From assembly GCA_902728285.1 (NCBI GenBank), contig CACVBU010000590.1, forward strand, positions 554,828 through 618,827: a DNA stretch of 64,000 bases, written 5' to 3'. The stretch is from Clytia hemisphaerica. Taxonomy: Eukaryota > Cnidaria > Hydrozoa > Leptothecata > Clytiidae. The translations under genes were made by a program, and so were the position numbers. Below are positions 4,391 through 31,280 of the stretch, in pieces (position 1 is the stretch's first letter; every line of letters starts with the position of its first letter). The notes beneath the pieces are model-generated. The model did not search any database. It had not been told where the DNA came from and was given only the letters and a program-made list of their open reading frames with translations.

Positions 4391-4799
4391 ATACTGCCGT
4401 TCTATGGCAAAAAACCAGGTAAAAAGCATTTTTATTTCAAGAAAAATATAATAAAGCCTTTATCTACGCATGGCCGACAATTTATACTCTAGGGCGACTT
4501 TTCAATTGTCGCTTTTTAGTCGCATTTTGAAGCCTCAATCGGATAGATTAAGCCTTGACAAGGCTTTTAGGCAATGAAAATCTATTAAAAAAGTCAATGC
4601 TTGGAATTTAGGGGACATATAAAATTTTGCTGTCGCCATACCGTTTTTTGCATATTTTAATGTCGCCTTTAAGAAATTCATATTCAAAATCAACTCTAAG
4701 GCGACTTCGCTTAAAGGCGACATTTTTTGTGTCGCCTTTAAGACAAATTTATTATAGGATATTCGACCATCAAATTATCTTACCGAATGAAATTAAAAA

Positions 4800-7141: not shown

Positions 7142-8153
7142 TTAATGAATGCCCATTTTTTTCATCAATTTTATTTTCTTATCTTTACGATCTTTCCGGT
7201 AATTAGTCACACGTGTCTTTATCTGTTTCGCGGTAACGTGATGTCGTCCCATGAATGCAGCAACCTCCTTTTTACCTAAAATAATGAAATTCAACAAAAC
7301 AATTGTCTACTGTCTTTTTTTTAGGCGATAACGGCGATTTCCGGAATTTTCGGCCGGAAAAAAATTTTCTTCAAAATTGGACTTGGCCATGTTTTGGGCA
7401 TTGCTAACACGCTTCTTTCTTTGTTAAAATTGTGCATAAAATCAGAGAAAACTTATGATGAAATCTCGAGAAAATGGCAAAAAAAAAAAGTTTTTAAGGC
7501 ATATTTCCGGGATTTTCCGCCGGAATTTTCTTTAAATCGGGCTCCGTCACATTTTAGGTATTGCCATTTTGTATCAGTGTGCAAAATTTGATGAAAAAAA
7601 ATATAAAGTGCAGCTCGAGAAATTCAAGAAAAACTATTTTCCGGCGACGGCTGTTCCGGCGAGTTTTAAAAAGTTCCGGCTTCAAAAATCAGTTTTTAAC
7701 AATTGAAATACGCTTGATGGTGGGCATTGCTATCGATAACGTTTTCGTGTCAAAAAAACAAAGAAATGGTAGGATAAAGTCCAATGAAATTCTGCAAAAA
7801 AAGGGATTTCCGGCATTTTCGGCTGGGAAATTTTTCTCAAAAATCGGACTCGGTCATGTTTTGGGCATTGCTAATACGCATCTTTGTGCAAAAAATCTGA
7901 AAGAAATAATGAGCCAGTCCCGAGAAAAGGTAAGAGACAAACGAACGGACGAACATGAGTTAATTTAAAGGACCTCCGAGGTAGGCCCAAAAAGTGAAGA
8001 AAACTCATCTTGGAATTAGAAGAATGCATGCGGATCGAAAAATTATCTTACCAGGAAATCCTCTGTCGTCGGCCAAGCATTTCGCAAAGGTTTTCTCAAA
8101 GTCGGATTTAGACTCTTCGGACCATCTGTGGTAAGTTCTCTGTTTCGGTATGT
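7142..8153 (-). CDS. Myb/SANT-like C-terminal exons and stop codon
   Basis: Two exons, 8153-8052 and 7275-7142. They encode IPKQRTYHRWSEESKSDFEK, TFAKCLADDRGFPGKKEVAA, FMGRHHVTAKQIKTRVTNYR and a basic tail KDRKDKKIKLMKKMGIH with TAA at 7142-7144. The W-x3-E-x5-F..., G-K-x-E/V-x3-F and T-x2-Q-I-x-T-R-V spacing is that of a divergent Myb/SANT domain, with helix 3 at TAKQIKTRVTN. Acceptors TTTATTTCAG and TATTTTAG and donor CCTG|GTAAG fit, and all phases are 1. Confidence 0.75.
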
Positions 8154-11100
8154 CTGAAATAAAAAATTGGACATATTAATTTAACCATGTGATGAGAATT
8201 AAATTTTAAAGATGTTTGGAAAAAGTGCTTCTAAATTGCATCCCGTGACGATAACAATGGAATACAACTTTTAAATTCCGTATTGAGTTGAGGAAAAATT
8301 TGACCAAAATTCAATAGAAAATAGCATGTAACAACTGCGCCAATCATCCTTTACAATAAGCTTATGAAAACTCTCTCGCCTTATATAATATTCTGGAAAT
8401 CGAGACTATACTTTAAGGGAACTAATTTTGGGTGACTTTTTTGTATTTCTGCTTTTCACCAGGAATTGACCTAAAAACTTAAAATTTAGATGACCAAAGC
8501 TGAACCTTTAATGACCGATTCCTCTTCATCTTCATCTTCCTCTTCATCTTCATCTTCATCAGGGCGAAACTCCTCACCATCTGTTTCTGAAATTAATCGA
8601 ACTACAAATGAAGTGATGTACCAAATAAGTAAGGTCAAGAGTGAAAAAAATTCAACACGCAAAAAAAGGTAAACGAGACTAGGGTTCAAGGTCCCACTTG
8701 CCTGAAGATATTAGATTCGTCACATTTACTTTTTGAACCCAAATATTCCGCAGACTAAGTGGGGACTGAGGTGCACAAGGGTTAAACAAAAGAGTAAAAC
8801 AAATCACACACTCTTAGTTCGATATGATGTAGGCGGCACGCATCCCTTCTAACTTGATTGGATATAGGGGATGCGTATGGTCTAAATTTGTTCCAGCGAA
8901 CTGCCTCGTGTGTGTTTTTTTGTTGCTATTGTGCATTATACTGCATTATAGCGTATTGATGACTCATTTCCTTTCAATAATGAATCAGAATTTAAAGATC
9001 AATAGAACAACTTATCCTTAGCCAAAGTACCCCCCCCCCCCCGATTTGGATTCTCTAAAACAGTAGAAATCACCGACAAGAACAATTTAAAAACAACAGG
9101 GTAACAAAATTATTTAGGGAACGCCCGTAGCCTACATAAAAGTTGACCTCAAAACGACTCCATTCTAAGTTTCTTTGTCCTGTTAAAAGCAAGTTTGATT
9201 TAGATCAACATAATCATAGATTAGCCTCTCAATGAATTTTAAGTAAGAATAACATACCTAAGTCAGATTCTTCAGATCCTGAAGAATAGAAAGATTTCAA
9301 TTAATTTCAGGGTACTCATTTTCACGCGAACTAATTTTTGCGCTTCTAAGAGGGTCAACACCTAAAATCTAAAAGCAGGGTTTATCGTATTTTTCCCAAT
9401 ATTAATATTTTTTGTTCACCAGAAGGTACTGTCTCAAATGAACCGCTTTTTATTTTCACTGTTTTTTTAATTACTGATGACAACTTGGACCGAGTCCGTG
9501 TTCAGATATATGTTGTGATGTTTTTTAGAATCAGTGTGAGAAAACGTTTCCAACGGCATATCATATGACATGTTTTAGAGACAAAATTTTCACACTACCC
9601 ATGGACTATATAAACCAATCCAACAGAAACTTTCCATTCATCACAACAAAGGTCAGGATCATGGTCTAAAATTTTTCCTATCCCGGAGATCTGGAGCACT
9701 TTCGTTTTCGATTTCATTAATTATCTGAGAATATTTGTTTCCAACTCAAACCCATACATATTATATACCAATCGATCAGAAATGTTCCGTTGACTAAAAT
9801 AACCTCCAAGGTTCATATTTAGTTTGGCAAAACTTCAAAAAAATCGAAGATTGTCCCGAGAAGTTATGCTCAACTAGAGCCTTTCATCTTCACGTGACAC
9901 CTGAACAGGAACAAAGGTCAAACCGCGTCCGTAAAGCTCTCCACACTTAAACAACACCCAGATCCTAGATTAAATCAGATAATTTTTGATATTTAGCCTA
10001 CAAGCTCACTCTAAGACCCTGAGAAAAACCTCCAAATCTTTTTACCCGATTATTTTCCTTAGCTGAGATAAGGGACCAGGAATCTCATCACGAGTGTACT
10101 GTTTTAGCCTAATGGCAGGACTACTAATTTGGCTACTTGAAATAGATTTTTGGACATTTTTTGGGTGCTGATTCCGAAAATCACCAAGCCTGCTACCCCT
10201 AATGCACCAAGTAGGCCAGAATGCCCCAAAATAGACATATCTGTGTGGAGCTTGTACCGATGTTTGCTTTGACTATTTTTGGGTATTATATGAGTTTCTT
10301 TAATAGTCAAAAGGCTTACAAATAGGCCGCTGATGATGTCACAAGTTGCCTTAGATGAAGTTTGGGGTTTGGTACTGATTCGCACCGGAATGACTAAAAG
10401 AGTTTTTTGGTCCTTTTGATGATTTCTTTCCCTTCTGTTTCCAGGCTTGCCGTAATGAAAGTGAACACACTATTCACTGTCTAACGTCGAAAAATTTGTC
10501 ACGCAAGTGCAGACAATGTTGAAATTGGAAAAGTTGCCGGGTGACAATGAAAAAAGTTGTCACCTAGCTGGTGAACCGGAAACAAAATATTTCTTAGGGT
10601 TGACCTACCCTTAGGGAAGAAATCTTTGAAAGAAATTTACTTTTAAGTTTTTTGGCAATTCGCGAAATTAAATTCCGCAAAACACAAATATTTTCAAGAT
10701 TTGAAAAAACTCCCCAAAAATTGGTATTTTTAGGGCAAAATAGGCCATATTGTGAACAAAAAATTCTCTCAACTGAGAAATTAAATTCCCGTGAAACTTC
10801 CGAATTTTGAGCTGTGAACCACAAAATTAAATTCCGCGAAGATTTCTTCCCTGAAGGTATTTCAGGAAAAAATGACTGGGCCAAAAAATGGAGGTTTCTT
10901 CAGGGCCATTAAATTCATCTGATTATCTCTTTAAAGAAAAACAATCTCAAGGGTTTACCTGATTTTCGATTAATTCTTTCAGGATTCTTGCGTTCGACTT
11001 TTTGGACAGCCACTAAAATTGTTAAAACAGTTTGATTATCTAAAAATGCAAGTTATTCTGGCGCTTGTTTTTAAGAAGTTTATAACTCATCGGATTTTAC

Positions 11101-14100
11101 AATTGCATGCCTTTGTTCGTTGATTAGGACTTACTCTCGGGTACTTAATAGCCGTCCCCCCCGCTAATTAATTTTTCGAAAATTTTCCACCCAGGACATT
11201 CTTATTCCAACCCCCCCGCTTATTAATTTTTGGGAAAATGTTTTTGAAAGTTCCCTTTTTTGTCCTAATTCAGCTGTATTAGCCTCCTTTTCAAAAATTT
11301 TCCACCCAGGACATTTTTATTCCAACCCCCCCGCTTATTAAGTTTTGAGATTTTTTCCAACCCCCCCGCTTATTCCAACCCCCCCGGCTATTAGGTACCC
11401 GAGAGTAGTTTTATCGGATATCCTGTGAAAACATTTAAATCACCATCGAGGGTTTCCTGCCTTCGGGATATTTAGACTGTGTAAGAAAAAAAATTTTAGT
11501 CTTCAATAGGGAAATTAATATGCTCTGAACGAATTCTAGTTTCAGTGATGCCAATAAAATTTATGTACAAAACAACAAACCCTACCTTTTACTCGTAGTT
11601 TCTTCTTCTTCTCAATTTTAATAACATTGCCTTGACTCCCTAACAAAACATAAGAGAACGATTTCAGTGAATTACTCAAAGAACTGATTTCAATCATTAG
11701 GTCTCTAATAACTATTGGATAACCGTTAGTCTCCAATTTAATTTGCTTGTTTTTGCACACCTCTTCAGAGCTCTGCATGGTGGCCACCCATATTTTGGGA
11801 CCGATTTCAAGGGTTTCAAGGGTCATTTTGCATTAATTTTCAAGGGTTTTAAGGACTGTCAAGGAGCCTTTTGGCCAAATTTTCAAGGGGGGGGGGGTTT
11901 CACTTTTACGGTATGACGGTATTGGGCCTTTTTACCCACGGTAAATCGGTATTACGAGAAAAAAACGACGGGATTACGGTATTTCATTTTCTACCGGTAT
12001 CGGTAAATTGCCTGTTTTTTTGTCGGTATTTCGATATTTTTATCAATAAAAAACGGTATTTCGGTATAAAACTATTTACCTTTTAGTTTCTTCATGAGTT
12101 TCATGCAGAAAAATTTTCAAAAAAGATAAGTCTCTTCCGCTATTTTAACCAGTAAAATTTTCTTGCTCGCTTCGCTCGCACAATCTAGGATGTCCTATTG
12201 AGTTATTGTCATGGTGAGGTTATTCAAAATAAGCAAAACTTTACCATAACTAAACAATTTTTGTTATTTTTCTGCGAGCGCATTTTTTTAATGACAACTT
12301 TTGTGATGCAAATACTGCATCCAGTAGTTCTAAAAGCATCTTGTGCAGCATCGAACGATTAAAAAATAATTCACATCATGATGCACATGATGCGTTTTCA
12401 GGCAATCTAGGCATTCTAAATTTTAAATTCTTTCTTGGGCGAAACTCTTGGAACGCCGCACCGGGTACGGCAGGTACGTCGCTCGCCGTACCATATTTTT
12501 GCCAACAAATGGTCAGTGTTAAATAAAATCAAAAATTGTATCACTAAACAAGGCATACTTGGCTAACAATAGCGTATTAAGGCCGTTTTTCAATAACAAA
12601 GGAGAGCGAAAATTCTCGAAAAATCTCGCGTTCTTTTTTATATTTCTTTTCTTTTCTCCGATAGGGGGGGGGGGTTAAACTTTAGAATTCGCGTCCTCTA
12701 GTTGCACCACAGCACCACCTCTATGAAGCCTGTGTTGAAGTCTACGGCTTCTCAGACCATGATTGGGCCAAACCTCGATTTTGAATTAATTCTCAATATA
12801 AAAGACATCTTATAGGTCTGCGAAGAAGAAATTATTGGGGGAAAGGCTTATTTTTGCATTTGCCTCCCGTAACAAGCAAGTAACTTTGGCGCGGCAGACC
12901 TAAAATATTGCTTTATGAAAGCTCAAATAGCTGTAAAAGAGGCCTTAAAAAGTGGACGATATCGAGAATAAGGTCACAAAACTAGCAAAAAACTTTATTG
13001 GCGAAAATGTTTGGTATAAGAATGGGACTAGCTGGAGTTTTTACAAGCTCTCGTTTGATTTGGTTGGTCGTTAACCTGTAATAAAACAATTTTGTTACTT
13101 TTTCTAAAGAACGCGTCATCTCTATTCCTTCAAATAACCAATTAGTGAAGTCTCTTGTAAAAACTCCAGCCCATCCCATAAGAATAGGTATCAATCTGTT
13201 TAAAAAAGACCATAAAAAGGTTAAATTTAGCCCAATAAGGTCACAATCGCTTAACCAAAGATGTAAAAGCAAAAATGGTTTTTTTCGTGCGTGAATACGT
13301 GAATTGGCAAAAATTTGTGCGTGAACACCTGAATTGAGGGTTGACTGGGGGGCCTCATAAAGTACAAAACTTGTTTGTACAATTTCTCATTTGTTACTAC
13401 ACAATAGATTTGATAACTGAAAATTCATTATTTTCGAGAAAAAAAACATAAATATAATATCGGTATCGGTATTAGGCTTCCTTCACCGACGGTATTACGG
13501 TATTTGACCCAAAGTCTTGTCGGTATGACGGTATTTAAGACCCCTGAAACCCCCCCCCCCTTTCAAGGGTTTCAAAGTCTTTTTCAAAGGCAAAATATAT
13601 CTTTAAGGCTACAAAAGCTGTAGTACTGAAAAGTTGCATATAGAACTTCAAGCTTTCAAGAAATCACAGTAATCAAAATCTGAAAGTATGACTATGTGAA
13701 TACAATGCAAAGGGCCAAAGAAAAATTTCAAAAATATTGGTCATGCACTTAAAAACCTTTTATTCATAGCATCATTCTAAAATATTTCAATAAATAAGCT
13801 TTTTTTGCATTGAATTGTTCACAAAATTTCAACCATGAATCTGAAAGTACAGTGGCGTGGTAGGTAAAATTTGTGTGGGGTTGTTGAGCAAAAATCTGGA
13901 TATATTTGGTTTCGGCGCCCCTTCTAGCCCCTACAATACAAATTTTTACCCAAAACAAGACAAGATACTTGTTAGTGGATGCCATTTTGTTAATAATTCA
14001 GCGCCATTTCATGTTTCATTAAGCGCTGCATTGGCTGGGTTTATGAAATTTTTACAATTTTCCTTTTTGGAGCTCCCTTGAAGTAGCTTCGTTGGGGACC

Positions 14101-17100
14101 TGGGCACCCCTGACCCCTCCTACAACCACGCAACTGTCTACCTTAAGGAAACTTTTTTGGCGTGAACTAATTTTGGCGGGCAGCAAATATCCTAAAAAAT
14201 TTTAATTTTGACGGGAACTTATTTTGACGAATAGTGAATTTTTTTTATTTTGGCGGGAACTAATTTTGCCGAATGACAGCGTAAATCTGTTCTATTTTGC
14301 CTTATTTTGAGCAATTTCAGGGTTTATTTAGGCAAGGAAACAAAAAATTAATTTTGGCGGGAACTTATTTTGGCGAGTGAGCAAAATATTTAATTTAAGC
14401 GGGAACTAGAGTGTAAATTTCATAGCTCAAGGGTCTTCAGAAAATCATCAAATTTTCAAGGGTTTCAAGGAAATTTTCAAGGGTAGGAAAAAAATCAAGA
14501 GTGTTTCAAGGGTTCTAAGGATTTCAAGGGTCGCTGGCCACCATTTCTGGTGTACAGAGGGAGAACAAAACCCCAATCGTTTGCTTTCCCACGTTATATT
14601 AAACATGAACTTTCTCTAAATGTTAGGATACCTGCTTTTTAATAATTATTATTCAATACCTGTCTGTAGTTCTCTTGTTTGTTTTGCTGCGGTTTGTTTT
14701 GCTGCAGTTTGTTTGAAGTTAGAGATTCCAGCCTAGGAGAAAGAAAACGCAATTAGTATTAAATATTGCTAAATTTCTCGTCCAACAAACCTCCAAGTAA
14801 CTCCTAGTATCCTTTTTCATACTGAAACGGAGGGGGGAGGGTCTGATTTCTGTTTATAGATTCTTAAATAATAGAGCTGTTAGTCGCGTTTTACATTCAA
14901 ACGATAATTTAATCTAGTTTTGAGGAATAGAACCATTATTTTCATTGATTATGTTAATTTTTTCAAGTTGCCGTAAAACATACACAAAATGGTAACTTAT
15001 TGTTTTTGCTCACATAGGCAGGATTGATAACGTTTGTCATTTTGAGTCTGGGGGACTACTATATATGTACCAAATTTTATCTAAGAAAAAAAACTGTTGA
15101 TAGATATCAATGTTTTCAAAGCCTGACAGAAGCCACCTTACTACATAATATACCTTGGGCCTGGTTTTTTCATGTCAAAAAAGTGCAGAAAACACTGAAA
15201 ACACGAAAAAATAGTACAATTTTTAGGTTCTTTCATTTTTTTTTTTGTAAATACAAAGTCCTGAAAACACTGAAAGCACAGTACCTTTTGAGGAGATGTG
15301 TTTGTGGTGCTTTCGGTGTTTACTGCATTTCAAAACTTCATTTCCAAAAATCACCAGTCAAAAGTCTCATCCTGCAAACACTGTAATTTTCGAGGTTTTT
15401 TCATGACAGAAATTCCGTGTTTACAGTGTTTTGCTCTGACGTCATGATAAAGATGGCGTTCGCGCGGGAAATGGCGGCAAAAATACTCCAATACAAAGGG
15501 GTTACAGGCGTTAGTTGGCGTCCGCATGTCCTGCCTCGCTTAGCCGTAAGATTGGGTAGGTGAGGCCAAATTTCACTTCCAAGATTTCAGTGCTTTCAGG
15601 ACTTTGAAAAAAGGTTTTTTCAGTGGACTGGCAGTGTTTGCAGTGTTTATAGTAAGTTCTGGACTTTGTTGACATGAAAAAACCAGGCCCTTTGAAGGAA
15701 GAAATTTTTTGGCAAAGGGCTGGAAGTTTATTCAGAGTAAAGCTTACTTGTATTTGGCGAAAAACTAAACCTTGGCGAGAGCTTAAAGGTTTTCTACAGG
15801 AATAAAAGGAGCTTATTTTAGGCAGTGTCTTCATGCCGAGTCAGATAAATCAAAGCTACTTTTTTACGCAACAATATCCTGCAAACAAGTGAAAGATCGA
15901 AAGTTGTTTCGAGATGTGACCTCACATTATATTGCTTTTGTAAACAAAAGAATAGCAAAGTTGATTTCGAGCAAATTTACAATCGAATGTTTTGATTATA
16001 AGGTAGAAAACGTTCTATTTATTATAAACATAAAAACGTTCGAAAGAGTATCAGTTAAAGTCTTTGTTAAAGGAATGTTTTTTATTCAATGTATTTTCAT
16101 TTTTTCGAAACCTTTTCTAATCTTGTCGCACTTGTTTTTAAACATCAACATCATCAGACCTTTCAATGAACACAAAACCTTTAACTTTGCAGATTTTGGC
16201 TAAATTTCGCCTTGTTTTTATTTCCGATAAAATCTTTTCCTTAGACCTGTGGTAACAAAATATAGTAAAATTGTGTGAATCTAGTTTTGAAAATGAAGTT
16301 TCCACTCAGCGCAAAACCGCATAAGAATTCATCATTGCAAAACCCTAGAAAAAAAAAAGAAACAAGAGTTAGAACTACCTTGGTGTTCTCATAAATCTGC
16401 ATCAGATGCTTGCCGGTACTGTGCAACTGCTGCGAGCCACCTGCAGCCTGGTAAATGCCTTCGTTAATCTCTTCAGAGTGTCCGAAATGCTTAAATATGA
16501 GATCTTTCTCTTTCTCCGACATCTCTAACCGTGCTAAAATTGAGGCCACTCTGTGACGATTACGTGTTGCATTAATTGCGCCTGTTAGTGACAGTCGTTG
16601 CAGGATGTTAACGATCGACTGCCATCCATCTGCATGTCCCTTTCCGCTCTGTGTACTTGGAAAGAGGTACAGATTTGTTTCCAAGACGCAAGCGGCTTTG
16701 CGGACTTCTGGATCAGCCATATATTTGATGGCTGGCAATGTTTCAGCTGGGAAGATCACTGGGACCAGGTGGTCTTTCCCCTTCCCAGTTTGGTAAGTGA
16801 CCAACATGGTTGTTTCGTCGAACTCTTCAGGCAAATCTTCCCGGTCGACCCATTCGCCCCTCGATGGTTCCCCACCTAAAGATTGAGAAGTGTTTGCAGG
16901 TATGTAAATAGAGGAAATTATGTTTAACTGCGTGGGTTGTAAAGTTACCACAAGTGTATTCATTTAGGTGTGTTCTTGATTTAACAGTCGGCTAAAAGGC
17001 TACTTTGGACATGCTTATTTAGGAAATGTGAATTTAAATTTTCAATCTAATTTCATTCAGATTTGGATCAATCAGTTTTATTTTTTGCTAAAATTCCTTC

Positions 17101-20100
17101 CTTTATGGCAGTTAAAAAAATTGGATATCAATTTCTTGTTAACTATTTAAAAAAATAGACAAACCTCGACGAGCATTGAACATGATAAGGCATGTCACAG
17201 TTGCAGCACGGATGTTAGTATATTTGTCGTCAATGTTTTTTGGAAAAGCCATTGGATCGGTTTTGGCCATTATTGATGAGCATTCGTTAAGAAGTAATGT
17301 GACGTCTTCTTCTTTAGGCAGGTTCACTGGCTTCCTTAATACTTTGTTGCGTTTGTTTGCAATGTCATAATAGGCATCTCCAAACAGATCATTTTCAAAG
17401 CCTGTCAGAACTTTCAAAAACATGACAACATACTCCGATCTTTTGTCTTCATTTTTCATTAGAAAGTTACCAATCAAATATTGACCAGTTTTCTTGATCA
17501 TATTAAGAATAGATATCTTAAGGCCACTTTTCTGGGCATCCACAACTTCTGTTTGGCCAGTAGTTTCATCTTCCTTCAGTGCCAATCTGTCAGCCGCTTC
17601 AGCCAATATAGATAGTCCCTCACGCCGATACATGTCAGATGCATTGTTTGCCATGTCGTTAATGACAACAGCTGATTGGCCGTCATATATTTCTTTGAAA
17701 GTTAGGTAAACACGTGCCATTAATCTTATTCGGGATCTAACTGTTCTTGAATTTGCCAACAACTTGTCTTTCTTTCGCTTTATGGCAGTGTAAGATTGTT
17801 CTCCGACCATGAGAATAATCTTGTCTGTTTTGATATAATTTCCTACAGCATCAAGGTGCAGAGTATTTAGTAGATCTTTGAATCCACTATTCAGTTCACT
17901 GATGGAATTAACAACAGTGTCATTGATTGATACGACTGGAACAACAGGGGTGTTTGAATTTGGACATTGATGTCTTGATTTGAATGATTTAGCAATAAAA
18001 CCTTGCAGCCTGCACACATAACCATTTCGGACTGATTGTTGCTTGTTCTTGCTCGCTGGAACGATTCCACCCCATTTCCATTATCTAACATCTTCATGTT
18101 ATAGGCTCTGACACCATCTCTTCTTAGTTGGTCAATTGCTTTGTCTTGCTCGCGTTCATATAAAGAAAGCAATGGAACCACTGAAGGTTCATTTTTGTGT
18201 GTGGTCAGTATATGTCGCTTCAATCTGGATTGAGGTTTCAAGTTTTTACAAAAGATACATGGTCTTTTAGATTTCTTTCGTGAAGCTGGCTTGTTTTCTT
18301 TCTTTCCTTTTAATTTTGTAGATAGACTTTGATTTTTTTCTGAAGAAACTGGGCATTTTTCGGTGGAAACGTGCTTCTTAAGTGAGAGATTTGACAATTC
18401 AGTCTCAGATGTTGACTGCATTACATCCAACGAAGCAAGAAAGGGTAAAGGAGGTATTGGTTGGAACTCGTCATCTGTATCAATAATACTTAGATCATTC
18501 GATATTTGAATACCAGAATCGTTTAGCGGGGTCTGCATTGGCTCCAAATTTACCTTAAAATGAAAATGATTGGGATTTTACTGAACCTTTACTATAGTAT
18601 CAAGTCAATAGAAGTACTTACAAACACATAGTGTCCCCCCCCCCCTTATAAAGGGGGAATTATTATTTTGCCCAATTTTTGAAAGTATGGGGGAAAATGA
18701 AAAATTTGAAATTTGATGGGGGGATTAAAGAGGGGGAAAACCATAAATTTTGATTGGGGAACTTCATTGATCTCAAGGTAATCTCGTAGAAGACTTGTTA
18801 AGCAATGAAATCAGCAAATCTAACTTGAACCAAACCAATATTTCAATAAAATGTCACTGTCAAGCATTTTCAAGGCTATATTTTCAAGCTTTCCAAAAGT
18901 TTAAAACAAAATGAAATGTTAGGAAAGTCCAATGAAAATCTGCAAAAATGGCAATTTCCAGCATTTTCGGCCGAAATTCTATTTTTTCAAAAAATCAGGC
19001 TTCGTCACATTTTAGATATTGCTATTTTGAGTCAATGTCCAAAATTTTATGAGAAAATATAAAGTACAGCTCTGAAAGATTCAAGAAAACCTGTTGTTCG
19101 GGCGATAAAATGCTGTTCTGACAATTTTTTGAAAGCTCTGGCTTCAAAAATCAGTTTTTTGACAATTGAAACATGCTTGATGGTTTTGTGAAGAATATAG
19201 AAAAAATGAAATCTGCTTTAAGGACTCGGATTTTCCCTGTAGGCTATTGCCGATAAAAATAATTTGTCAGTGGAAATTAAACTACATCACCATGGGGTTT
19301 AAAAAAATATCTGTTACCCTATTTAGATGTTGGTCAAAAATCCATAATGGCAGAATTAGGGGTTTCCCCTATTTTATTTGACCCCTCGATAAAAAAGGCT
19401 CAAAAACTTGACAATCATCCTATCAGAAATTTCATATACCTTAAGGGAACTTTTTTTGGCGGGAACTAATTTTGGCAGGCAGCAAATATCCTAAAAAAAT
19501 TTAATTTTGGCGGGAACTAATTTTGGCGAATGACAGCGTCAATCTGTTCTATTTTGCCTTATTTTGATGAATTTCAGGGGTTATTTAGGCAAGGAAACAA
19601 AAAATTTAATTTTGGCGGGAACTTGTTATGGTGAGTGAGCAAAAAATTTAATTTTGGCGAATTTCGTCTAAAATCGCCAAATCCGCCAAAATAAGTTCCT
19701 TTAAGGTAGATTAAGAAAAAGGTCCGAAACATGGTGTGAAAATTGTCTACCTAGAAATATGGAGGATTGTCACTTTTCGTTGTCTTCGGAATTTCAGTTT
19801 TCCTAGCAACTTTGAGTGACTAACTTTTTTGCTTTGTTAGATAGTGATTGTCAAGATCATAATTTATTTTCAGACTATGATTCTGACTTTTTCTTAAGTA
19901 GCATAAAATTTCTGATCGTTTGATTTATAATAGTATGCAAGGCTTTATTTTCAAAAAAAGTTTTTTAGACTTCCTAAGAACCAAAACAGAAAAATGTTTC
20001 TGCCATTATGGATTAGACATTTTTGCAGAAAACAAATTACCTTTTTTGTTTATTTAGAAGGTAGACAACAGTTCCAGAAACTTAAGTGAATCAATTAAAG

Positions 20101-23100
20101 CAAATAAAGAAAGTTTCAATAACAAAGTTGCTAGGAAAACTGACACGTTGAAACTGGTTGAAAAGAATTAAAAGTGAATTTCTACGTATCTTGGGATAAG
20201 AAAATTTTCAGGCCATGGTTCTGACCTTTTTCTGAAAAAGTTTGTAATTTCTGATCAATAGATGAATTTAGAGTAGAATATATTTATTTCTAACACTAAA
20301 TTTTTTTTCCTACAATGGTTTGAAGAAATTGGTAAAACCTGAAAAATTCAACATTATGGTTTGTCGACCAATTAATATAATTAATATAATATAGTAGTTT
20401 TCTGAGAAAAATGAGTATGTTACCTGTTCGTTGCATCGATTCTGATTGATTTGATCGGATTCTGAGAGATTTGATCTGGATTCTGAGTGATTTGATCTGG
20501 ATTCTGATTGATTTGATCTGGATTCTGAGAGATTTGATCTGGATTCTGAGAGATTTGATCTGGATTCTGAGTGATTTGATCTGGATTCTGAGAGATTTGG
20601 TCTGGATTCTGAGAGATTTGATCTGGATTCTGAGTGATTTGATCTGGATTCTGAGTGATTTGATCTGGATTCTGAGAGATTTGATCTGGATGCTGAGTGA
20701 TTAGATCTGGATTCTGAGAGATTTGATCTGGATTCTGAGAGATTTGATCTGGATTCTGAGTGATTTGATCTGGATTCTGAGAGATTTGATCTGGATTCTG
20801 AGTGATTTGATCTGGATTCTGATTGATTTGATCTGGATTCTGAGAGATTTGATCTGGATTCTGAGTGATTTGATCTGGATTCTGATTGATTTGATCTGGA
20901 TTCTGATTGATTTGATCTGGATTCTGAGAGATTTGATCTGGATTCTGAGTGATTTGATCTGGATTCTGATTGCCTTGAGCTACATTCCAAGTTCTTTGGT
21001 CAGTATTAAGAGTCCTTTGATTCAGATTCTGAGTGCTTTGATTAGGAGTCTGACTGCTTTCATTTGGTTTCAGAGTGTTTTCATTCAACATTAACTTTGT
21101 TTGGATCTGAAATTTTGAAAGAAGGTTTCCAATTAAAAGTTGTTTTAAACACAACACTTGTAAGCATGTACTATTTCTCATCTTTTTCCACTATCACCAC
21201 TTTATTTCACCAACAAAGACAAACAGAGGTTGATCTTGTTTTAATCTTTCACAAAAATACTCTAATTGCCTGTGCATAGACTTTTTGAAGTTTTCAGTAG
21301 GGGTATTGGTTTTGGACAGTTTGAGTTCAGAATTATTTTAGCCTCTTTAGGATACACGATGGTCTTTTGACTGTCTGGAGAAAATCAATTCTGTATATCT
21401 TAACCTTTTGATTTAACAAAAATGATTGGTGTATTTCTATAGTTTAGAAGTTTAAAATCTTCTCTTTCCATTGAGTTAGTCTTCATTGAAATCGGTCTGT
21501 TAGATTTGGCATGTTAACTGTTTGAATGCAAACTTACTTTAAGATTTCCAAAAATTTCTTTTCTAGAAAAATTGAGGTATCCCTATGTCGCTTTGATGTT
21601 TGCTCAAAAATAAATCTTTTTATGGAATGAAAAATCTTCCTTTTATTTAAAATTAAAGAGGGAGACAAAATCAATAGATTTTAACCTTAATTCTTTTGCA
21701 GAATAGGACAAAGGAAGATAGTAGGAACTTACGAATGTGAATATTTTATCAATTTTTGTGACAGTATAGACATTATAAATACTTTTACATTTAACAATAT
21801 ACGTGACCACGCAAGCAGTTTGGAGACAAAAATTTGTTGTAATTGATAAATTGTTGGACTGAACAGGAGTGTTGCAGGCAAAATGCCAATCGATTTGTTA
21901 GTATCATTCAGAAAAAAATTATGTACTTAAAATCCCTTAATTGGAAAGAGCATAAAATTTTACATCCCAATCAGTCCCAATAAGTTAAAAATGATTTAAT
22001 AAATACCATCGTGTATTTTCCCTTTGTAGAAATTCGAAAATTGGTTTACGATTTCAATTTCCTCTATTTCCAATGATTGTCATCATTTTAACGAATCTGT
22101 ACATTAGAGATCTTAGAATACATACCATTTCATCTAAACCAATCAATCCATCAGCATCGTCACCATAATCAGAGTTATCACTAATCTCCATCTGTTACAG
22201 AGAAGTTTAAAACTATTAGAACCTCATTGTGTTATGTCAAAGTTGGTGTCAGTCAATCAAAGACTGGTCTCTGAAATAAGAATTAATTTAGACCTTCTTT
22301 GGTGTTAAAATTCAGAATGAAAAAAACTGTTAAAATTGACACTCCCATGAAATATAGTTTCCACAAAAATATGTTTCAATAAGGTATATACCAGTTCTCC
22401 TTTGAAGTCAAGTTCTTGATAACAACGCTTGGTCTTTTTCTCCTTCTGAAAATTTAGAATTTGTATTGCAGATCTGTATAAATATTTTAATAGGTGTATT
22501 CCTAAATTCGCGAAATAAAAAACCTTCAAATTTTCAAATTCAATCAGTCTGTTGCGATCTTTTGTCAAACAAAGATGGCAAAGCAGATTTGTTTATGTAT
22601 ATTTTCTACTAAATGTTGTCTCACCAGACCTTGATTTAGAGCAATGGAAGATCTGCTATGAGATTACTGGGTCCCTAAATTACTAATATGTATCAAAGTA
22701 TCAAACAGGAGCTATTGTGGACCAATATCACAATCAGACATTTGAAACTTTTCTGATTCTTTGTGTACTTTTGGTCATTTTAGCCACTTTGTTGAAAGAA
22801 GTTTATGTTATAACAACCTATCAAAAGTGGCTATGAATTTTAGAACAAAAACATGCAAAGGATGTGGTATTTAATAATTTTAGTCTCATAGAAAAAGCAC
22901 AATCGTTAAAGGGGTGATAAGTAAAATACATACACAAAAGTGAACTCCAGAATTGTATTCAAACACAACAGATTCAGCATCACTCAAGTCATCTTCAGGA
23001 ATGCTCTCCATGATGTCAACCTCTATTCTGAAATTGAGAAATAATAATCATCTACAGAGCATTCTCCAGTATCTCAAATGGTATGGGTGACTGGAATGGT

Positions 23101-26100
23101 TTTTGATAAAAAGCTGGTAACAGAAGGACAAACGGACAGACGAGCGGACAAGGGTTAGTTTATAGGACTACCTTAGGGTAGGTCTAAAAATAAAAGCAAC
23201 CATGTATCCTTGTTAAGTAAAAACAATTTAGCCTACGTTATGTTTGTTAAAACATCTCACCTTTCTGATGTAAGAGAGCTCGTTAATGGAGCCAAGCATT
23301 TGTTCTAAAATGGAACAATAAAAAATAAAGAATATAGATGTGTGATTACACAGACTGAAAAGTTCAATATTGACTTTTAAAACTATCTATTATTCAAAAG
23401 TTTTAATCTGTAACTATACCATTCTGCAATATCTAAATGTTAAAATTTTCTAATGATCTGCAGAGGTCCGAGTCTAAAACAGTCTAAATAAATTGATTGA
23501 CTTAAAGGAAACTAAAACTGACTACTTCTCTTACCATTTTTCTCCATACCATGTTTTCTTCGGAATCATAATAGTCATACCTGTTAAAACAATCAACCGA
23601 TAACTATTCAAAATTCATATCTATAAACTGGCAAATTTGCGCAACACCCAGCAACACCACATTAAGCTAAACTTTACCAATTTTCTGTAACTTAGAGGCC
23701 TATCATGTAGTAGTTGAGCCATTGGTTTCCAGGCCTTGTGAATAAAAAATTGGTTTCCCAGCCTTGTGAGTAAAGACTTCAAGGAATATAATAAAAAGCC
23801 ACAAATGTGTCTTGCCACGCGATTTAGATAACATTCATGTTCGGCTAGGTTCGGCCTTTTTGTTCTTCGTCCAACTCGCCCAAGAACAACCAAGAATGAC
23901 TTAGATCGTCCAAGATTGGACTGGGTCGGTTAAGTTTGGCCTTACTTTTTTATAATCCATTTTATGAAAGATCGAGTCCAAACCAGGCTGATCTACGAAG
24001 CCGAAAAATATCAAAACAACATTTGGGCGCCAAGTCAGAAAAAGAAGACATTCCATTGCGAATCATTGCAAAATCGAATTTTTCTGTTTTTTCAATAGTT
24101 ATAAACTTGAAAGAAAATGTTGTTGTGTTTTTTTTTTCATAACAAAGTTTTTTACTTTATTTTGTCCAGTCGAGTGGTAAAACTGGATGACTAACAACAG
24201 TTGTAGTAACAGTTGTAATTATTCCTCGTGTTGTTTGTCTTAGTTTTCAGGTTTTCTTTTAGCAATTTTGTTTAACGAAACAAAATATTTTCTTTTGGTG
24301 GTGGAAATTATTAAAGATTGTTTGGAAGAAAGAAATGAATCGATGATTCATAATCAGGTAGGACAGATTCAGACAACCGGATGTAAGCATTTTTCTTTTT
24401 GAAACTAAGTGGATAACTCTACGCTTATAACACCCTCTTGCCTGAAACCTCTAAATTTCCATTCATAGTTTATGATTTTGAAAGGATTATTTTTTTGTGA
24501 GGAAAGGTTTGTTTCTTTTTTGAACAAACCATAGGCTGATCCTAAAAAGATAAATGTTTCCCGTCCACCAGCCAACTTACCGGATTTCCGTTCCTTGCTC
24601 AATATCTTGGGATGCGACAAGATAAAGACGAACTTTTTGATCCACTATCTGTCTTTTCATTATTGCATTGGCTAGGAACTTTGGTGAATCGTTGATATAT
24701 TTTCCGTAGCCTTCCATCAATGTTGCATCCAAACTGAAGAGAGAAATTGTTGAACTCAAACTAATATCACTAGTCTCATTCAAATTAAAATCAAATCAAA
24801 TCTGAATCTAAATCTAAATTTTTTTCTTAGACCAGACCAAATTGACTAGTTGTTTTTGACCTTAGAATAAAAAAAAATTAAGCTCATTTGGCAGCACCTA
24901 TTTAACTGACTACCTTATTAAGGTAAGTTTTTAACAACACTTACCTTATGGTATTTATTTTTGCGTGTTAGAAATTTTCGATTTCGAAATTTCAAAATGA
25001 CTGATTTAGCTATTCAAGCTAAATCAGTCATTTTCTTGCTTTATTCCCACTTTTTGAAAATGCCTTTCGCAAAATTTAATACACGCAAAAGTTTCCAGAA
25101 ACTGGCAATCGTGAAATTTAATACACGCAAAACACATTTCCTCAAAAAAATTTGTTTGTAACATGCGAAAATAAATACCATTAAAGGTAAGACCAAAAGG
25201 GTACAAAACTAGCTTTTTTAAATTGCTAATATGAAAGTAAGACACCTGTATCATTATCTTACCATCGTAATTTCCCATCGATGTCTGAAACACCATCATA
25301 AATAAAACATCCATGTCCATCTCTTTCATAATTTATCCGTCTTTCATCAGCTTCTTCGATAGAAACCAGTTCACCTGTCAATATAACAAAACGTAAATAA
25401 TCGCACAATGTTTTCGAACCTTTTGTTAATTGTTTTAAACGTTCATTGCAATGCCAAGACCAAAAAAGTTACAATGCTTTAGCTTCACTTCGTAGTAAAA
25501 AGATTGGAAAGTACAGCCTGTGTTTAAAATGTAGACACTATAATACAGTGACTGGAAAAGTATATTGCTAATGTAGACACTTAAATACAGTACTGTAGTC
25601 ACATAAATACAGTGACTGGAAAAGCGTATTGCTGAATCAGAGTACATGTTACATACACATACGATAAGATTGACTTTAAGAGCCTTTAATCTTCAAATTC
25701 TTCAAGGTGTGATACCTTGATGTCTCAGATTTTGCTAAAATTTTGACCAAATGACCCTTTTAGTTAGAAAAGACAATCCTGAAAAAATCAGCTTCATAGC
25801 TTAAGTGGTTTTTGAGATGACTCCTTGATTTTGGAATACGGAACAAAATTTCATACCAAAAAAATACAATTTCTGTGGGGAAGAAAATTTGGAAGTGAAA
25901 AGAAATTGATTGGAGACAAATGAAGGTCTGTTTCTTTCCAATACATCAGAACTTTTTGCTGGGAATCGGAAAAATAAAAAGTGGGTTACCAAAAATTTCT
26001 TGAAAATTTGCTAGCACACTCTTAAGGGGGCCCAAAAATTGAAGAATCGAAGCGAAATGCATATTTACAGCAAAATTGAAGGTCTACAACAAACTTTTAG

Positions 26101-27692
26101 TGCTCCATTTCTTAGGGTTGTCTAATGGGTGGAATATTTCACTAAAATCTGAATTTTGGAATTTCTACCTAATTGCATGGTTCAGAAAATGACAGAAAAA
26201 TGCAGCTAAGTTGGGTTTGTGTCTTTTCTTACCAAAAGGGTCATTTGGTCAAAATTTCATCAAAATCTGAGGGGGGGGGTACAGAGGCAGGGTACTAACC
26301 CATAGGGTACTAACTTGATTTTTTACTAAAATTTTGTTAAATTTTACAGATTAGACCAAGAGAGGGGTACTCTTGTTAATTTTTCAGACTGAAAATTGAC
26401 AGATAATTCAAGCAAACTATCAATGATGGAGTCAGAAGCTTTTGTCCTTTGATTTTCATCACACACTTCTTGACCATTTTGGAAGTTTTGTCTTCAAAAA
26501 AATCAAAAAATTTGTCAAAAGAGTAAAAAAAATTTGTCGATTAAAAAAATTTCAAATCAAAAGAATTAATAATTGAAAAGTCAAAATATTACAACAAATT
26601 ACTTTTTTTATTGAAAAACAGCAAAATTCTGTGAAAAAGTACCCAAAAAATAGTATCCTGTACTTGCTTGCAGTACCCTGTGTCTGTACCCCCCTGGACA
26701 TTAAGGTATCCTGAAGTAGACTCTAAGAAAAAATGGCTCTTAATACAGAAAAAAACTAGATTTTAGAAGCAAAGCTATTTTTAGTTAAATAATCTATGAC
26801 AGACCTAATCTATGACAGACCTTGTGCAACAAATCCGAAAATTATCTAAGAAACAAACATAAATATTTGAACAACTGACTGACTTGATTGCTTTAGCTAA
26901 AAACTGAAGATATACCTTTATATTCTAGGATGATATCTTGTTTCCCTATTGGAAACTTAAAAAAGGAAACAGGAGTACAGCACCATTAAGATAAATTTAA
27001 GATGAGAACAATAGAACGTTTTTGTATAAAATGACAATTGAGAAGGTGTGGAAGTTACATTATTCTATTGCTAAAAAAAGGAAATGCAGTTGCTCATAAT
27101 ACATACGTTTTTGGAATAAGAAATGTCTCAGGAACACTCATCAGAGACAGGAGAATCAGTAGGAAGTAATTTTAATGATTGTAATTAAATTTTTGAATTT
27201 CTACACAGCTTTTTCTTTATAAGTTTTTGACTATATGGATCAAAATTTCTGATTTTAACTGCCGAAATTGCTAACCGGACTGGCTCAACTTCAATTTATT
27301 CAAATAAATTATTCAAAGGCCCAATTGTAAATTTTAGCAAAAGATCTTGATATTGGACCTCAGAAATTAAAATTATCAACAAAAAAATGAAAAACACCCA
27401 CAAAATTTCAGTCAAATCGGACTATTTTTATTTAAGTCTACAGGCTGCCCCCAAAGTTTTCAGCTAGGTTTTAGTGCTAAAACTCATCCCCAAGTCCCCA
27501 AAATGAAAATTTTGAAAAAATGAAAAAACAACCCCAGGTATTCACCCAAATAAAAAGTGTGCAAAATCTCAGGCACCTGAGAGCAATGACTTAAAGCAAA
27601 CTTACCAACATAATCATTGATAAAGAGTTTCTCAAAACATTCATCTTCCTTTCGATTGAGCAGAAAACGCAACTGTGTATTCTTTCTTGTTC
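7142..27692 (-). CDS. SET - heptad repeat - zinc finger - tyrosine recombinase - Myb/SANT fusion gene
   Basis: At least 16 exons: 27692-27606, 26955-26916, 25374-25263, 24733-24581, 23580-23535, 23304-23261 (end +/-1), 23027-22934, 22191-22126, 21106-20424, 18553-17165, 16875-16379, 14732-14660, 11762-11586 (acceptor uncertain), 8586-8506, 8153-8052, 7275-7142. Every junction has AG/GT borders. Phases agree throughout except where one base is missing (20424-21106 and 17165-18553) and where one small SET exon between 27606 and 26955 was not found. The product is roughly 1,250 residues; the 5' end and start codon are unknown. From its domains it should be nuclear: a lysine methyltransferase-like domain joined to a DNA-binding and strand-transfer fold and a Myb-like domain. 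From memory, fish and invertebrate genomes hold multicopy KMT5A-like proteins with recombinase-like C-termini; this arrangement looks akin to them but was not checked. It may be a domesticated or mobile Crypton-type gene, or a recent pseudogene. Confidence 0.78.
7320..7975. repeat. Dispersed repeat with TTTCCGG...TTTTCGGCCGG units
   Basis: Four diverged modules (near 7330, 7500, 7640, 7800), each with TTTCCGG.ATTTTC.GCCGG followed by TTGGGCATTGCTAACACGC-like text. It ends in ACGAACGGACGAAC and GGACCTCCGAGGTAGGCCC. The stretch 7500-7725 has a diverged copy at 18945-19185, and its end resembles 23130-23190. It lies just beyond the 3' end of the SET-recombinase gene. Confidence 0.65.
8506..8586 (-). 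CDS. Acidic exon (Asp/Glu run)
   Basis: 81 bp in phase 1, encoding ETDGEEFRPDEDEDEEEDE and ending ESVIK. Acceptor TTAATTTCAG, donor TAAAG|GTTCAG. Such acidic runs often precede a Myb/SANT domain in chromatin proteins. On the plus strand the same DNA reads as a serine run, which is a shadow. Confidence 0.65.
10606..10859. mobile_element. TA-flanked MITE, TACCTTAAGG family
   Basis: Ends TACCCTTAGGGAAGAAATCT and AGATTTCTTCCCTGAAGGTA are near-perfect reverse complements. Inside are repeated CGCGAAATTAAATTCC motifs. Confidence 0.75.
11132..11407. mobile_element. TA-flanked MITE, TACTCTTAGG family copy 3
   Basis: Begins TACTCTCGGGTACTTAATAG and ends CTATTAGGTACCCGAGAGTA. It shares the C-tract and TTATTAATTTTTCGAAAATT interior with the copy at 5554. 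Confidence 0.75.
11586..11762 (-). CDS. Charged helical exon downstream of the recombinase
   Basis: Encodes EVCKNKQIKLETNGYPIVIR, then DLMIEISSLSNSLKSFSYVL and a basic end IEKKKKLRVK. Donor AAAAG|GTAGGG, phase 1. The 5' border is uncertain: the phase-correct acceptor is CTGAAG|AG at 11763, whereas a stronger-looking ATGCAG lies a few bases upstream in the wrong phase. A transposon begins only about 15 bp upstream and may have replaced the original polypyrimidine tract. Confidence 0.5.
11886..13560. mobile_element. Nested hAT-like non-autonomous element with CGGTAT repeats
   Basis: Both ends carry a G/C run followed inward by GGTTTCA and arrays of ACGGTATGACGGTATT and CGGTATCGGTAT motifs, inverted at the two ends. 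TTTCAAGG flanks both sides and could be an 8-bp target duplication, though the host element itself repeats that motif. Subterminal short repeats of this sort are typical of hAT elements. Internal inverted repeats occur at 13016-13047 and 13152-13190. Confidence 0.55.
14139..14410. mobile_element. Partial TACCTTAAGG-family element
   Basis: Left end TACCTTAAGGAAACTTTTTT followed by repeated GGCGGGAACTAATTTTGGCG, as in the full copy at 19437. The right terminus is missing. Confidence 0.55.
14660..14732 (-). CDS. Lysine/alanine/glutamine linker exon
   Basis: 73 bp encoding AGISNFKQTAAKQTAAKQTR then ELQT. It begins in phase 0 after the recombinase exon (acceptor ttctcctag) and ends in phase 1 (donor ACAG|GTATTG). 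The composition suggests a charged helix. Confidence 0.6.
15158..15690. mobile_element. 533-bp inverted-repeat element
   Basis: GGGCCTGGTTTTTTCATGTC at the left and GACATGAAAAAACCAGGCCC at the right are exact reverse complements. Inward of both lie ACACTGAAAACAC/GTGTTTGCAGTGTTT motifs. The open frames inside it have no recognisable product. Confidence 0.75.
16379..16875 (-). CDS. Tyrosine-recombinase catalytic exon (Crypton-like)
   Basis: Joined to the previous exon it reads NARRGGEPSRGEW, equivalent to the GLRRGEL arginine box of tyrosine recombinases. Then come VTYQTGKGKDHLVPVIFP (beta-hairpin with the catalytic lysine), NLYLFPSTQ, TRNRHRVASILA (the H-x-x-R-H box, with Thr at the usual His position and Arg kept) and FKHFGHSEEINEGIYQ (the GH and the tyrosine nucleophile). 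So Arg, Lys, Arg, His and Tyr positions are all present; only the first His is replaced. Acceptor CTTTAG, donor CAAG|GTAGTT. The ARRGGEPSR...GHSE.IN..IYQ pattern is one I associate with a multicopy uncharacterised family in corals and molluscs. Strand-transfer ability is untested. Confidence 0.82.
17165..18553 (-). CDS. Zinc-finger and recombinase N-terminal exon
   Basis: It opens with an acidic region, then a basic stretch (KGKKENKPASRKKSKRP), then a C-x2-C-x11-H-x4-H finger (CIFCKNLKPQSRLKRH..). A second motif, MCAGCK followed by GFIAKSFKSRHQCP, gives C-x2-C-x11-H-x-C but crosses two frames. One G is missing near 18001, and the exon is correspondingly 1389 bp where phases need 1390. The second frame continues for about 270 residues (TDKIILMVGEQSYTAIKRKK, YVVMFLKVLTGFENDLFGDA, KPVNLPKEEDV) and ends ATVTCLIMFNARRG at the donor CGAG|GTTTGT. 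This helical part is the core-binding region expected in front of a tyrosine-recombinase catalytic domain; the ARRG brings in the first catalytic arginine. Confidence 0.8.
18940..19195. repeat. Diverged copy of the 7500-7725 repeat
   Basis: Shares the order TTTTCGGCCG, CGTCACATTTTAG, AATATAAAGTGCAGCTC-like text, GATTCAAGAAAA and GGCTTCAAAAATCAGTTTTT with 7500-7725. It lies in the intron between the repeat exon and the zinc-finger exon. Confidence 0.65.
19437..19708. mobile_element. TA-flanked MITE, TACCTTAAGG family, full copy
   Basis: Starts TACCTTAAGGGAACTTTTTT and ends AGTTCCTTTAAGGTA. Subterminal GGCGGGAACTAATTTTGGCG occurs several times. It lies in an intron of the large gene. Confidence 0.78.
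20424..21106 (-). CDS. Heptad tandem-repeat exon (NPDQI[S/T/N]Q)
   Basis: A single exon made mostly of about 24 copies of a 21-bp unit encoding NPDQISQ, NPDQITQ or NPDQINQ. It enters through TLKPNES, SQTPNQS, TQNLNQR, TLNTDQR and TWNVAQG, so the units are older and more diverged at the N-terminal side and nearly identical toward the C-terminal side. The acceptor is AAATTTCAG and the donor ACAG|GTAACA. Length is 683 bp where 684 is needed for phase 0 to 0. The last unit has ATCGGAT in place of ATCTGGAT on the plus strand (near 20455); restoring that base puts the exon end in frame with the next exon. The 21-bp unit is open in most of the six frames, so other frames reading SESRSNL or DLIWIL are shadows. 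Confidence 0.7.
22126..23304 (-). CDS. Acidic linker exons between SET and repeat
   Basis: Three short exons: 23304-23261, 23027-22934 and 22191-22126. They encode NKCLAPLTSSLTSER, IEVDIMESIPEDDLSDAESV then VFEYNSGVHFC, and MEISDNSDYGDDADGLIGL. They are rich in Asp, Glu and Ser with no folded domain I recognise. Splice sites are good (cattttag, aatttcag, ctgtaacag; donors GTGAGA, GTATGT, GTATGT) and the phases chain without a break from the SET exons to the repeat exon. Confidence 0.7.
23535..26955 (-). CDS. SET domain exons (KMT5A-like)
   Basis: Four exons: 26955-26916 (only 40 bp), 25374-25263, 24733-24581 and 23580-23535. Joined, they read FPIGKQDIILEYKGELVSIE, then EEADERRINYERDGHG, CFIYDGVSDIDGKLRCLDAT, EGYGKYINDSPKFLANAI, LYLVASQDIEQGTEIRYDYY and a final VWRKM. 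These match SET landmarks in order: the EYxGELI strand, the CIDAT strand, the INHSxxxN cofactor-binding loop (here YINDSPKFLAN) and the GxEIxYDY catalytic tyrosine motif. W-R at the end recalls the PWR end of fish KMT5A-like proteins. The phases of all four exons agree (1, 2, 2, then 0). Histidine of the NHS motif is aspartate here, as in some KMT5A-like proteins. Whether it is catalytically active is unknown. Confidence 0.85.
24942..25189. mobile_element. TA-flanked MITE, TACCTTAAGG family
   Basis: Starts TACCTTATGGTATTTATTTT and ends AAAATAAATACCATTAAAGG then TA. An internal inverted repeat AATGACTGATTTAGC / GCTAAATCAGTCATT lies near 24996-25034. It is intronic, between two SET exons. Confidence 0.75.
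26271..26694. mobile_element. G-run inverted-repeat element, hAT-like
   Basis: Left GGGGGTACAGAGGCAGGGTACT and right AGTACCCTGTGTCTGTACCC are inverted. The G/C runs at the ends recall the CAGGGG start of hAT elements. No clear 8-bp duplication. Confidence 0.55.
27606..27692 (-). CDS. Exon preceding the SET domain
   Basis: 87 bp in phase 1, encoding ...TRKNTQLRFLLNRKEDE then CFEKLFINDYV. The acceptor is tttcacag and the donor GTTG|GTAAG. The F..LFI...V segment sits where KMT5A-like proteins lead into the GRGVFA motif of the SET domain. The GRGVFA part itself should be in the next exon, which I could not find between 26956 and 27605. This is the most 5' exon I can support. Confidence 0.55.
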
Positions 27693-27889
27693 CTGTGAAA
27701 ACCAAAGAAAGAGTAAAACATTTCTTTTTCTCCAATTTTGCTTCAATGTCAAGTTTGCAACCAACAGTATATGAAAAATATTGTTCTATAATTTAAATAT
27801 GGAATAGAACCCTTAAACTTTGTACTAAAAGATGAAACTATAAAAAATGAAACAGATAAAAAAATTCACTCCATTAAGAATTAGTGAAT

Positions 27890-30800: not shown

Positions 30801-31280
30801 GAAACATGTCAATGAAAAGGAAAATGATTTTCGCATGGTTATTAGTAATGCTCGTTTGTTGGAAATTTGTGGTACGAAAGATGTGAGTTTGTTTATCAAA
30901 AGTCAACAATCGAAATATATTGCTCATGTTATTCGTATGTGTATTGATAGAAATGTTAAACGTCTTACATTCAATGATGATAAATATACTCGAAAAGGTC
31001 GACCAGTCAAGTCGCTTTTGGAATGCGTTATGGTTAATGAAAATGTGAGTGTTGATGGTTTTTGCAACCTTGCATTGCAAAGAAAGAAATGATACGATGA
31101 TATAATAGTTTTTCTTTTTGTAGTAGTGAAGCTGGCCTATCCAGGTTCAATTTATTATTTGAAGAATTCGGTGTGGGTTTGGAACCGACGTCAAACGACG
31201 TTGGTACAGGCCCACACCCTATTCAACCTAGCAATAGGGAATAGTAAAATTTTATATTTATATATATATATTGTTTGTTT
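27890..31280 (+). pseudogene. RTE-like non-LTR retrotransposon, decayed
   Basis: Inserted antisense to, and 5' of, the SET exons. Residues from 28107 encode an endonuclease/exonuclease/phosphatase domain: IGTINVRTAS, ALQETRRLGKGSG (catalytic Glu), VICLGDFNAT and FDSDHRLVIATL. In-frame stops follow at 28947 and 29235. A frameshift near 29750 links SNKASNDVEAEFLKS to the reverse transcriptase, which runs to 31092: LLFIDLTAAFDHIP (motif A), SGVLQGGPESSFLFNLFIDF (motif B), WCGYADDLVLF (motif C), LTINKSKTETM, KFKYLGCYID. It ends LRRMVRNG...RKGRPVKSLLECV. Order and endonuclease sequence fit the RTE clade; the clade call is from motif memory. The 5' untranslated part has a GGTGGTC...GGCCACC hairpin near 27902. 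Confidence 0.85.
31170..31218 (+). repeat. 3' hairpin of the LINE
   Basis: GGTGTGGG at 31170 pairs with CCCACACC at 31211, with GACGTCAAACGACGT in between able to form a second stem. It lies between the reverse transcriptase stop and the (TA)n tail, where a structured RNA could be recognised by the element's own reverse transcriptase. Confidence 0.55.

Follow-up and report, generated by a model that had tools for sequence, protein, structure and literature searches.

Gene layout of the locus

The window, that is the whole stretch of 64,000 nucleotides analysed here (C410:554828-618827), exhibits on its minus strand a chain of exons (A to S), running from position 27692 to a stop codon at 7142. 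Its introns and gene content identify the source of the locus as a eukaryote. Along the minus strand, a SET domain like that of KMT5A/SETD8 comes first, followed by a tandem repeat of 7 residues, a pair of zinc-finger-like motifs, a tyrosine recombinase (YR) region and a Myb-like end. For the window gene, no start-codon exon was identified. Paralogues were searched in a genome of 417 Mb on 951 contigs, C410 being the contig of the window. One of them (C254:2435450) keeps exons A, B, C, D and E, the zinc-finger and YR parts and exons Q and R, in the same order as the window; no credible match was found there for exons F, G, H, M, N, O and S.

The SET region occupies five minus-strand exons. Its first part lies in exon A (27606-27692; TRKNTQLRFLL...), which is delimited by splice sites, belongs to an open chain and is 59% identical to its counterpart in C254. 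Exon B (26916-26945; KQDIILEYK) continues the open chain with 90% identity over 10 residues in C254. Exon C (25263-25374; GELVSIEEAD...GKLR) matches KMT5A and is 74% identical in C254. The SET core is carried by exon D (24581-24733; CLDAT...NDSP...TEIR) and the SET end by exon E (23535-23580; YDYYDSEENMVWRKM), which aligns with KMT5A; both are 80% identical in C254. Four small linker exons follow in the open chain between 22126 and 23304 of the same strand: F (23304-23261), G (23027-22934), H (22445-22392) and I (22191-22126). All four occur in a near copy on contig C180, where exon H contains a stop, and exon I is weakly matched in C254. Exon J (20424-21106, minus strand) comprises about 30 units of 7 residues of the NPDQITQ type. 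Tandem Repeats Finder (TRF) delineates a 21-base repeat at 21106-20424, confirming the heptad-repeat exon of the original prediction, and comparison with C180 reveals a one-base frame change near the exon's end.

The downstream exons lie on the minus strand as well. Exon K (17165-18553) encodes the two zinc-finger-like motifs and the N-terminal YR part with the catalytic arginine; a one-base frame change separates the two halves of the second zinc-finger-like motif. The C-terminal YR part, with the GKG, TRNRHR, GHS and tyrosine motifs, is in exon L (16379-16875). Exons M (14660-14732), N (11586-11639) and P (9258-9278) are weak candidates called from splice sites and phase alone. Candidate exon O (10959-11012) is in phase and 94% identical in C180. 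Exon Q (8506-8586) encodes a conserved acidic stretch (88% identity in C180, 58% in C254). The Myb-like part begins in exon R (8052-8153; DIPKQRTYHRWSEES...), which is 54% identical in C254 and has matches on C410, C180, C558, C254 and C59. It ends together with the stop codon in exon S (7142-7275; KKEVAAFMGRHHVTAKQIKTRV...), matched on C410, C22, C180, C59 and C418.

Exons A to J have AG/GT borders and constitute one open chain in the window copy; exons L to S, with the same borders, constitute a second one that reaches the stop. The splice-phase linkage proposed from the first reading of this DNA thus holds within A-J and within L-S, but not across the J-K junction, where the window copy loses phase and C180 keeps it.

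The SET region

The joined exons B to E (26945-23535) score 39.1 bits against the Pfam SET model (cut-off 22.4), whereas exon D alone scores 19.8 bits and stays below the cut-off. The joined SET exons also match the structures of KMT5A/SETD8 (phmmer E-value of about 1e-9). The top PDB hit of the SET part is a SET-domain protein (4ldg, E-value = 1.9e-10), and ranks 2 to 15 are all KMT5A/SETD8 chains (E-values from 1e-9 to 8e-9), which places this SET domain close to KMT5A. The Pfam score and the structure matches together bear out the SET domain that had been read from the sequence. Genome-wide, SET exons were found at 65 places.

An Asn-His motif in the AdoMet pocket is defining for KMT5A/SETD8. 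In contrast to the Asn-His of KMT5A, Asn-Asp (NDS or NDT) occupies the SET pocket in all eight loci counted (the window, C180, C254, C332, C802, C504, C8 and C308). No GxG motif was visible by eye in exon A. Because of this replacement and the missing GxG motif, methyltransferase activity is uncertain, and the SET part may be inactive as a methyltransferase.

The tyrosine recombinase region

The window protein alone exhibited no YR match in Pfam or PDB, and its YR exon had no hit against PDB up to an E-value of 10. As a query, the window YR identified 28 matching places in the genome, corresponding to 26 loci. One of these members (L028), found with 28% identity and an E-value of 3.5e-7, scores 28.0 bits against the phage integrase model PF00589, above the cut-off of 27.1. 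At E-values up to 10, PF00589 matched two of the eight aligned members, the best at 1e-6. A profile built from these eight members was compared with 177,635 PDB sequences, and its sole hit up to an E-value of 10 was the tyrosine recombinase XerA (E-value = 0.0046), with the lysine, arginine, histidine and tyrosine in register. A search of PHROGs gave nothing useful (best E-value 0.041). The recombinase assignment therefore survives the profile tests, through L028 and through XerA.

The arginine, lysine, RHR, GHS and tyrosine positions pointed out in the original prediction are present in the window copy, within exons K and L. The invariant positions of the member alignment include Arg279, Glu282, Lys311, Thr383, Arg386, His412 and Tyr421. 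Counted by hand over the 26 loci, with two pairs of rows merged into one locus each and with the window, C8 and C308 included, the first arginine is kept in 22 of the 23 aligned loci, the lysine in 23/23, the second arginine in 24/25, and the histidine and the tyrosine in 26/26 each. These counts contain weakly aligned fragments (e.g. C464, C22:327329 and C617), and at the first position of C8/C308 overlapping hits gave both lysine and arginine, the residue of C8 proving to be arginine. The Arg, Lys, HxxR, His, Tyr set of tyrosine recombinases is thus retained except for the histidine of HxxR, which is threonine in 24 of the 25 aligned loci and serine in one. This retention suggests that catalysis, rather than docking alone, may have been under selection in the YR. 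Open YR frames exist in other members: 558 codons in L013 and 695 in L017; in L015 and L019 the two YR exons are both open. By contig, C332, C504 and C8 are among the paralogues whose YR frame is open.

A Crypton/DUF3504 identity was considered and rejected: no DUF3504 match was obtained in Pfam up to an E-value of 10, the model being assumed to be present in the Pfam copy used. With no such family matched, we do not retain the "Crypton-like" label first given to this region. Ordinary phage-integrase-type YR places above the PF00589 cut-off number at least 128 in the same genome, indicating that other tyrosine recombinase genes or elements are common in it.

Linker, zinc-finger-like motifs and Myb-like end

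The tandem repeats that lie between the SET and zinc-finger parts differ from paralogue to paralogue, those of C802/C504 included. Several of them have a period divisible by three: 21 bases for the window and C180, 24 for C332, and 18 for C8 and C308. The repeat is demonstrated as coding for the window chain (open from A to J). Two zinc-finger-like motifs are visible by eye, C..C...H...H near 18250 and C..C...H..C near 18000, as the original prediction had it, but the score of the Pfam model zf-H2C2_5 (13.5 bits) stays under its cut-off of 27.

The Myb-like exons (8153-8052 and 7275-7142) have ten genome matches on seven contigs (C410, C22, C180, C558, C254, C59 and C418); C558 and C418 exhibit a Myb-like match without a YR match. 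No Myb model of Pfam matched the tail exons up to an E-value of 10, and the resemblance is one seen by eye. Of the Myb/SANT end proposed earlier, the Myb-like exons stand, but the Myb/SANT label finds no support in Pfam.

Lesions and selection

Compared with C180, the window exhibits the one-base frame changes in exons J and K, and its exon L is devoid of 11 residues that C180 has shortly after the catalytic arginine (an in-frame gap). The single continuous frame from SET to the Myb-like end that had been envisaged is thus broken in the window. Because of the two frame changes and the gap, the window copy is unlikely to yield a full-length protein.

The near copies examined have lesions too. 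In C180, stops interrupt exons H, J and L, the end of exon C is absent, and so is the segment 11134-16038 that holds candidate exons M and N. The copy at C22:82778-96182 still has its SET exons and the final Myb-like exon; the stretch corresponding to 8074-23237, with the YR part and the greater part of exon R, is absent. C254 has two stops within its joined YR segments.

Together with these lesions, a dN/dS of 0.57 between the YR parts of the window and C180, based on few changes, makes it likely that the window copy is a pseudogene without protein product. The finding would then concern its relatives only, a reading compatible with the one we prefer below. Against it, the frame changes of the window may stem from assembly error, and exons A to I, as well as L to S, are open in the window. 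In addition, the coding YR shares 99.1% identity with that of C180, against 96-99% in most of the aligned blocks of the region, so that some constraint may persist. At the level of the family, the SET region of the window and C254 (86 codons) gives a dN/dS of 0.16 (NG86) or 0.10 (YN00). For the YR of the same pair, dN is 0.275 and dS is not estimable, as expected at saturation. The SET-YR family has been under past purifying selection, which the window copy may have left.

Mobility

A second alternative is that a family of mobile YR elements captured a KMT5A-like SET domain, the YR moving the element and the SET domain shaping chromatin at the element or its target. The almost invariant catalytic positions of the YR and the many copies in the genome speak for it. 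So do the ends of the copies: those on C410, C180 and C22, all of the window clade, end at nearly one point, near 4446, with flanks that are all different, and a fourth match (C628, 81%) also ends there. This common end resembles that of a mobile element, mobility being unproven. At the other side, the block common to the window and C22 reaches 32939, past a LINE-like insertion, and includes part of a GPCR-like gene, which counts against mobility.

The LINE-like insertion (27842-31268, plus strand) adjoins exon A upstream, has endonuclease and reverse-transcriptase motifs recognizable by eye, and is absent from C22. The GPCR-like (seven-helix) fragments (31847-33022, minus strand), also recognized by eye, are interrupted by stops and lie mostly inside the block duplicated in C22. 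An upstream element end at 27841 was discarded: the LINE-like insertion begins there, and similarity to C22 resumes at 31269.

Cryptons are found as mobile copies with short direct repeats of 4-6 bases at both ends. When the two block ends were compared, no direct or inverted match of 8 bases was found in the roughly 90 bases around the upstream one at 32939. That end is defined by a single comparison, and repeats as short as those of Cryptons escape such a test.

The C8/C308 pair was also tried as an element with a sharp end. Similarity resumes beyond the apparent end and spans the SET exons, so this mobile-element reading was dropped; the two copies align in the same order on either side, as expected of alleles. 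The near-identical copies compared all look allelic or lie inside a larger duplicated block. Most copies are diverged and intron-rich, which gives the family the look of a host gene. Overall, we regard such a mobile element family as unlikely, though it retains some appeal in the patchy distribution of a published family that may be identical to this one (65 genes in Hydractinia, 24 in Hydra, 1 in Nematostella and 61 in sea urchin, as given in PMC10368294).

Linkage of SET and YR in one gene family

A SET exon lies upstream on the same strand, at a distance of 6.6-22.5 kb, at 11 of the 26 family YR loci, where 0.0025 per locus is expected. As a control we used ordinary YR places of the same genome (PF00589 places; 142 of 278 candidates scored, yielding 128 places), of which one has a SET exon upstream on the same strand. 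The difference is highly significant (Fisher test, p = 4e-9, or 2e-8 without the window). After near-identical loci were collapsed by hand, 9 of 16 groups are SET-linked, the control being left uncollapsed. A local search of the fetched DNA, carried out on the family loci and not on the control, adds C802 and C504 and raises the linked loci to 13/26.

Among the linked loci are members whose YR shares only 28-32% identity with that of the window (C99, C248, C628 and C677), which argues that the SET-YR union is old. Nine loci were read at length. Eight of them, three near-identical pairs included, exhibit the order SET, zinc finger, YR; the ninth, C22, is without the YR part. At the other 13 of the 26 YR loci no SET exon was detected by the genome and local searches among the matches listed, so that some members may be YR-only or their SET exons may have been missed.

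The contrast of 11/26 with 1/128 makes one ancient fused gene far likelier than two neighbours. We conclude that SET and recombinase far more likely belong to one ancient, fused, multi-copy gene family, as the fusion first proposed for this locus required, and the SET and YR exons would be spliced into a single transcript. That a SET gene merely precedes a separate recombinase gene is very improbable: the long repetitive linker, the out-of-phase J-K junction of the window copy and the 13 loci without a detected SET exon would fit it, but order and strand agree at 13/26 loci down to 28-32% YR identity, small exons connect the SET and recombinase parts in the open chain A-J, the J-K junction is in phase in C180, and the gene models of Hydractinia and sea urchin in PMC10368294 likewise combine an N-terminal SET with other domains in longer genes.

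Comparison with known systems

Judged by titles and the beginnings of abstracts, no fusion of SET with a tyrosine recombinase was found in the open-licence literature searched. Comparable multi-copy genes of a KMT5A-like/recombinase kind may exist in fish. The transposase of SETMAR is of the mariner type. SETMAR/Metnase is described as a SET-transposase chimera with H3K36 activity (PMC4593633); the present family is similar in fusing SET to a transposon enzyme, but here the enzyme is a YR. DIRS1-type retroposons with ALOG domains are reported to encode an inactive N6-adenine (DNA-type) methylase, fused in some versions to the YR catalytic domain (PMC3537659). They share with the window family a methylase domain joined to a YR; in contrast to their N6-adenine methylase and reverse transcriptase, the methylase-type domain here is SET, and the gene contains no reverse transcriptase.

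The domesticated Crypton genes with DUF3504 (ZMYM2/3/4, QRICH1, KCTD1, KIAA1958 and WOC) are all described as having lost the catalytic tyrosine and the second arginine (PMC3212892), and the YR of animal CryptonA is reported to be related to DUF3504. The window family resembles them in having a YR-derived region inside a host-like gene. It differs from them in the absence of a DUF3504 match and in keeping the tyrosine at 26/26 loci and the second arginine at 24/25.

KMT5A/SETD8, which monomethylates histone H4K20, is the best named relative of the SET part with solved structures. KMT5A itself has its SET domain at the C-terminal side (PMC10368294), whereas here SET is N-terminal (upstream of the zinc-finger and YR parts in 8/8 loci), carries Asn-Asp and is followed by zinc-finger-like motifs, YR and a Myb-like end. 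In Hydractinia and sea urchin (Strongylocentrotus), most KMT5A-like genes are reported to carry SET at the N-terminal side; the longer ones contain further domains, and the C-terminal ends show conservation across the two animals, with E-values below 3e-43 (PMC10368294). The window family, with 65 SET places, 26 YR loci and SET followed by YR, is likewise multi-copy, N-terminal in its SET and long. It thus resembles the expansions of Hydractinia, Hydra and Strongylocentrotus, with their dozens of diverged KMT5A-like genes that mostly have an N-terminal SET. By this likeness of description rather than of sequence, the two may be one family. Neither "integrase" nor "recombinase" occurs in the main text of PMC10368294, whose figures or supplements might show such a domain.

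A proposed DNA-docked chromatin factor

We lean, if only slightly, towards the window copy being a probably decayed member of an ancient multi-copy gene family, in all likelihood from an animal, whose protein serves as a DNA-docked chromatin factor. Its zinc fingers, recombinase fold and Myb-like end would grip selected sites on the DNA, and its SET part would act on, or merely bind, the nearby nucleosomes. A repetitive, fast-changing linker lies between SET and the zinc-finger-like motifs, and the acidic stretch and Myb-like end are seen in the window subfamily. Such a family would reside in the genome as a host gene and not as an active transposon, with a window copy that yields no full-length product. 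Methylation, and any recombination, by its proteins are predictions from sequence.

The retained catalytic positions leave room for an active recombinase. In its strongest form, SET-YR proteins would be animal tyrosine recombinases that are active, write chromatin and come into play at about the time of zygotic genome activation; by cutting and rejoining DNA where it is marked, they would either move themselves or rearrange host DNA. We consider this improbable. Should the N-terminal-SET genes expanded in hydrozoans and sea urchins turn out to be the window family, these puzzling, early-activated histone-methyltransferase genes would become chromatin enzymes fused to recombinases in which most catalytic residues are kept. 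DNA binding or cutting by the YR part, H4K20 methylation by the SET part, and the mobile or domesticated state of the genes would then be open to direct testing.

Other features of the window

An interspersed repeat at 25013-25189 has dozens of copies in the genome (about 77-87% identity), including an array on C630. A lysine-rich open frame of 358 codons lies on the plus strand at 37846-38922. Short tandem-repeat arrays of the CAACCAATC-like type were identified by TRF at 61294-61624 and 62340-62659.
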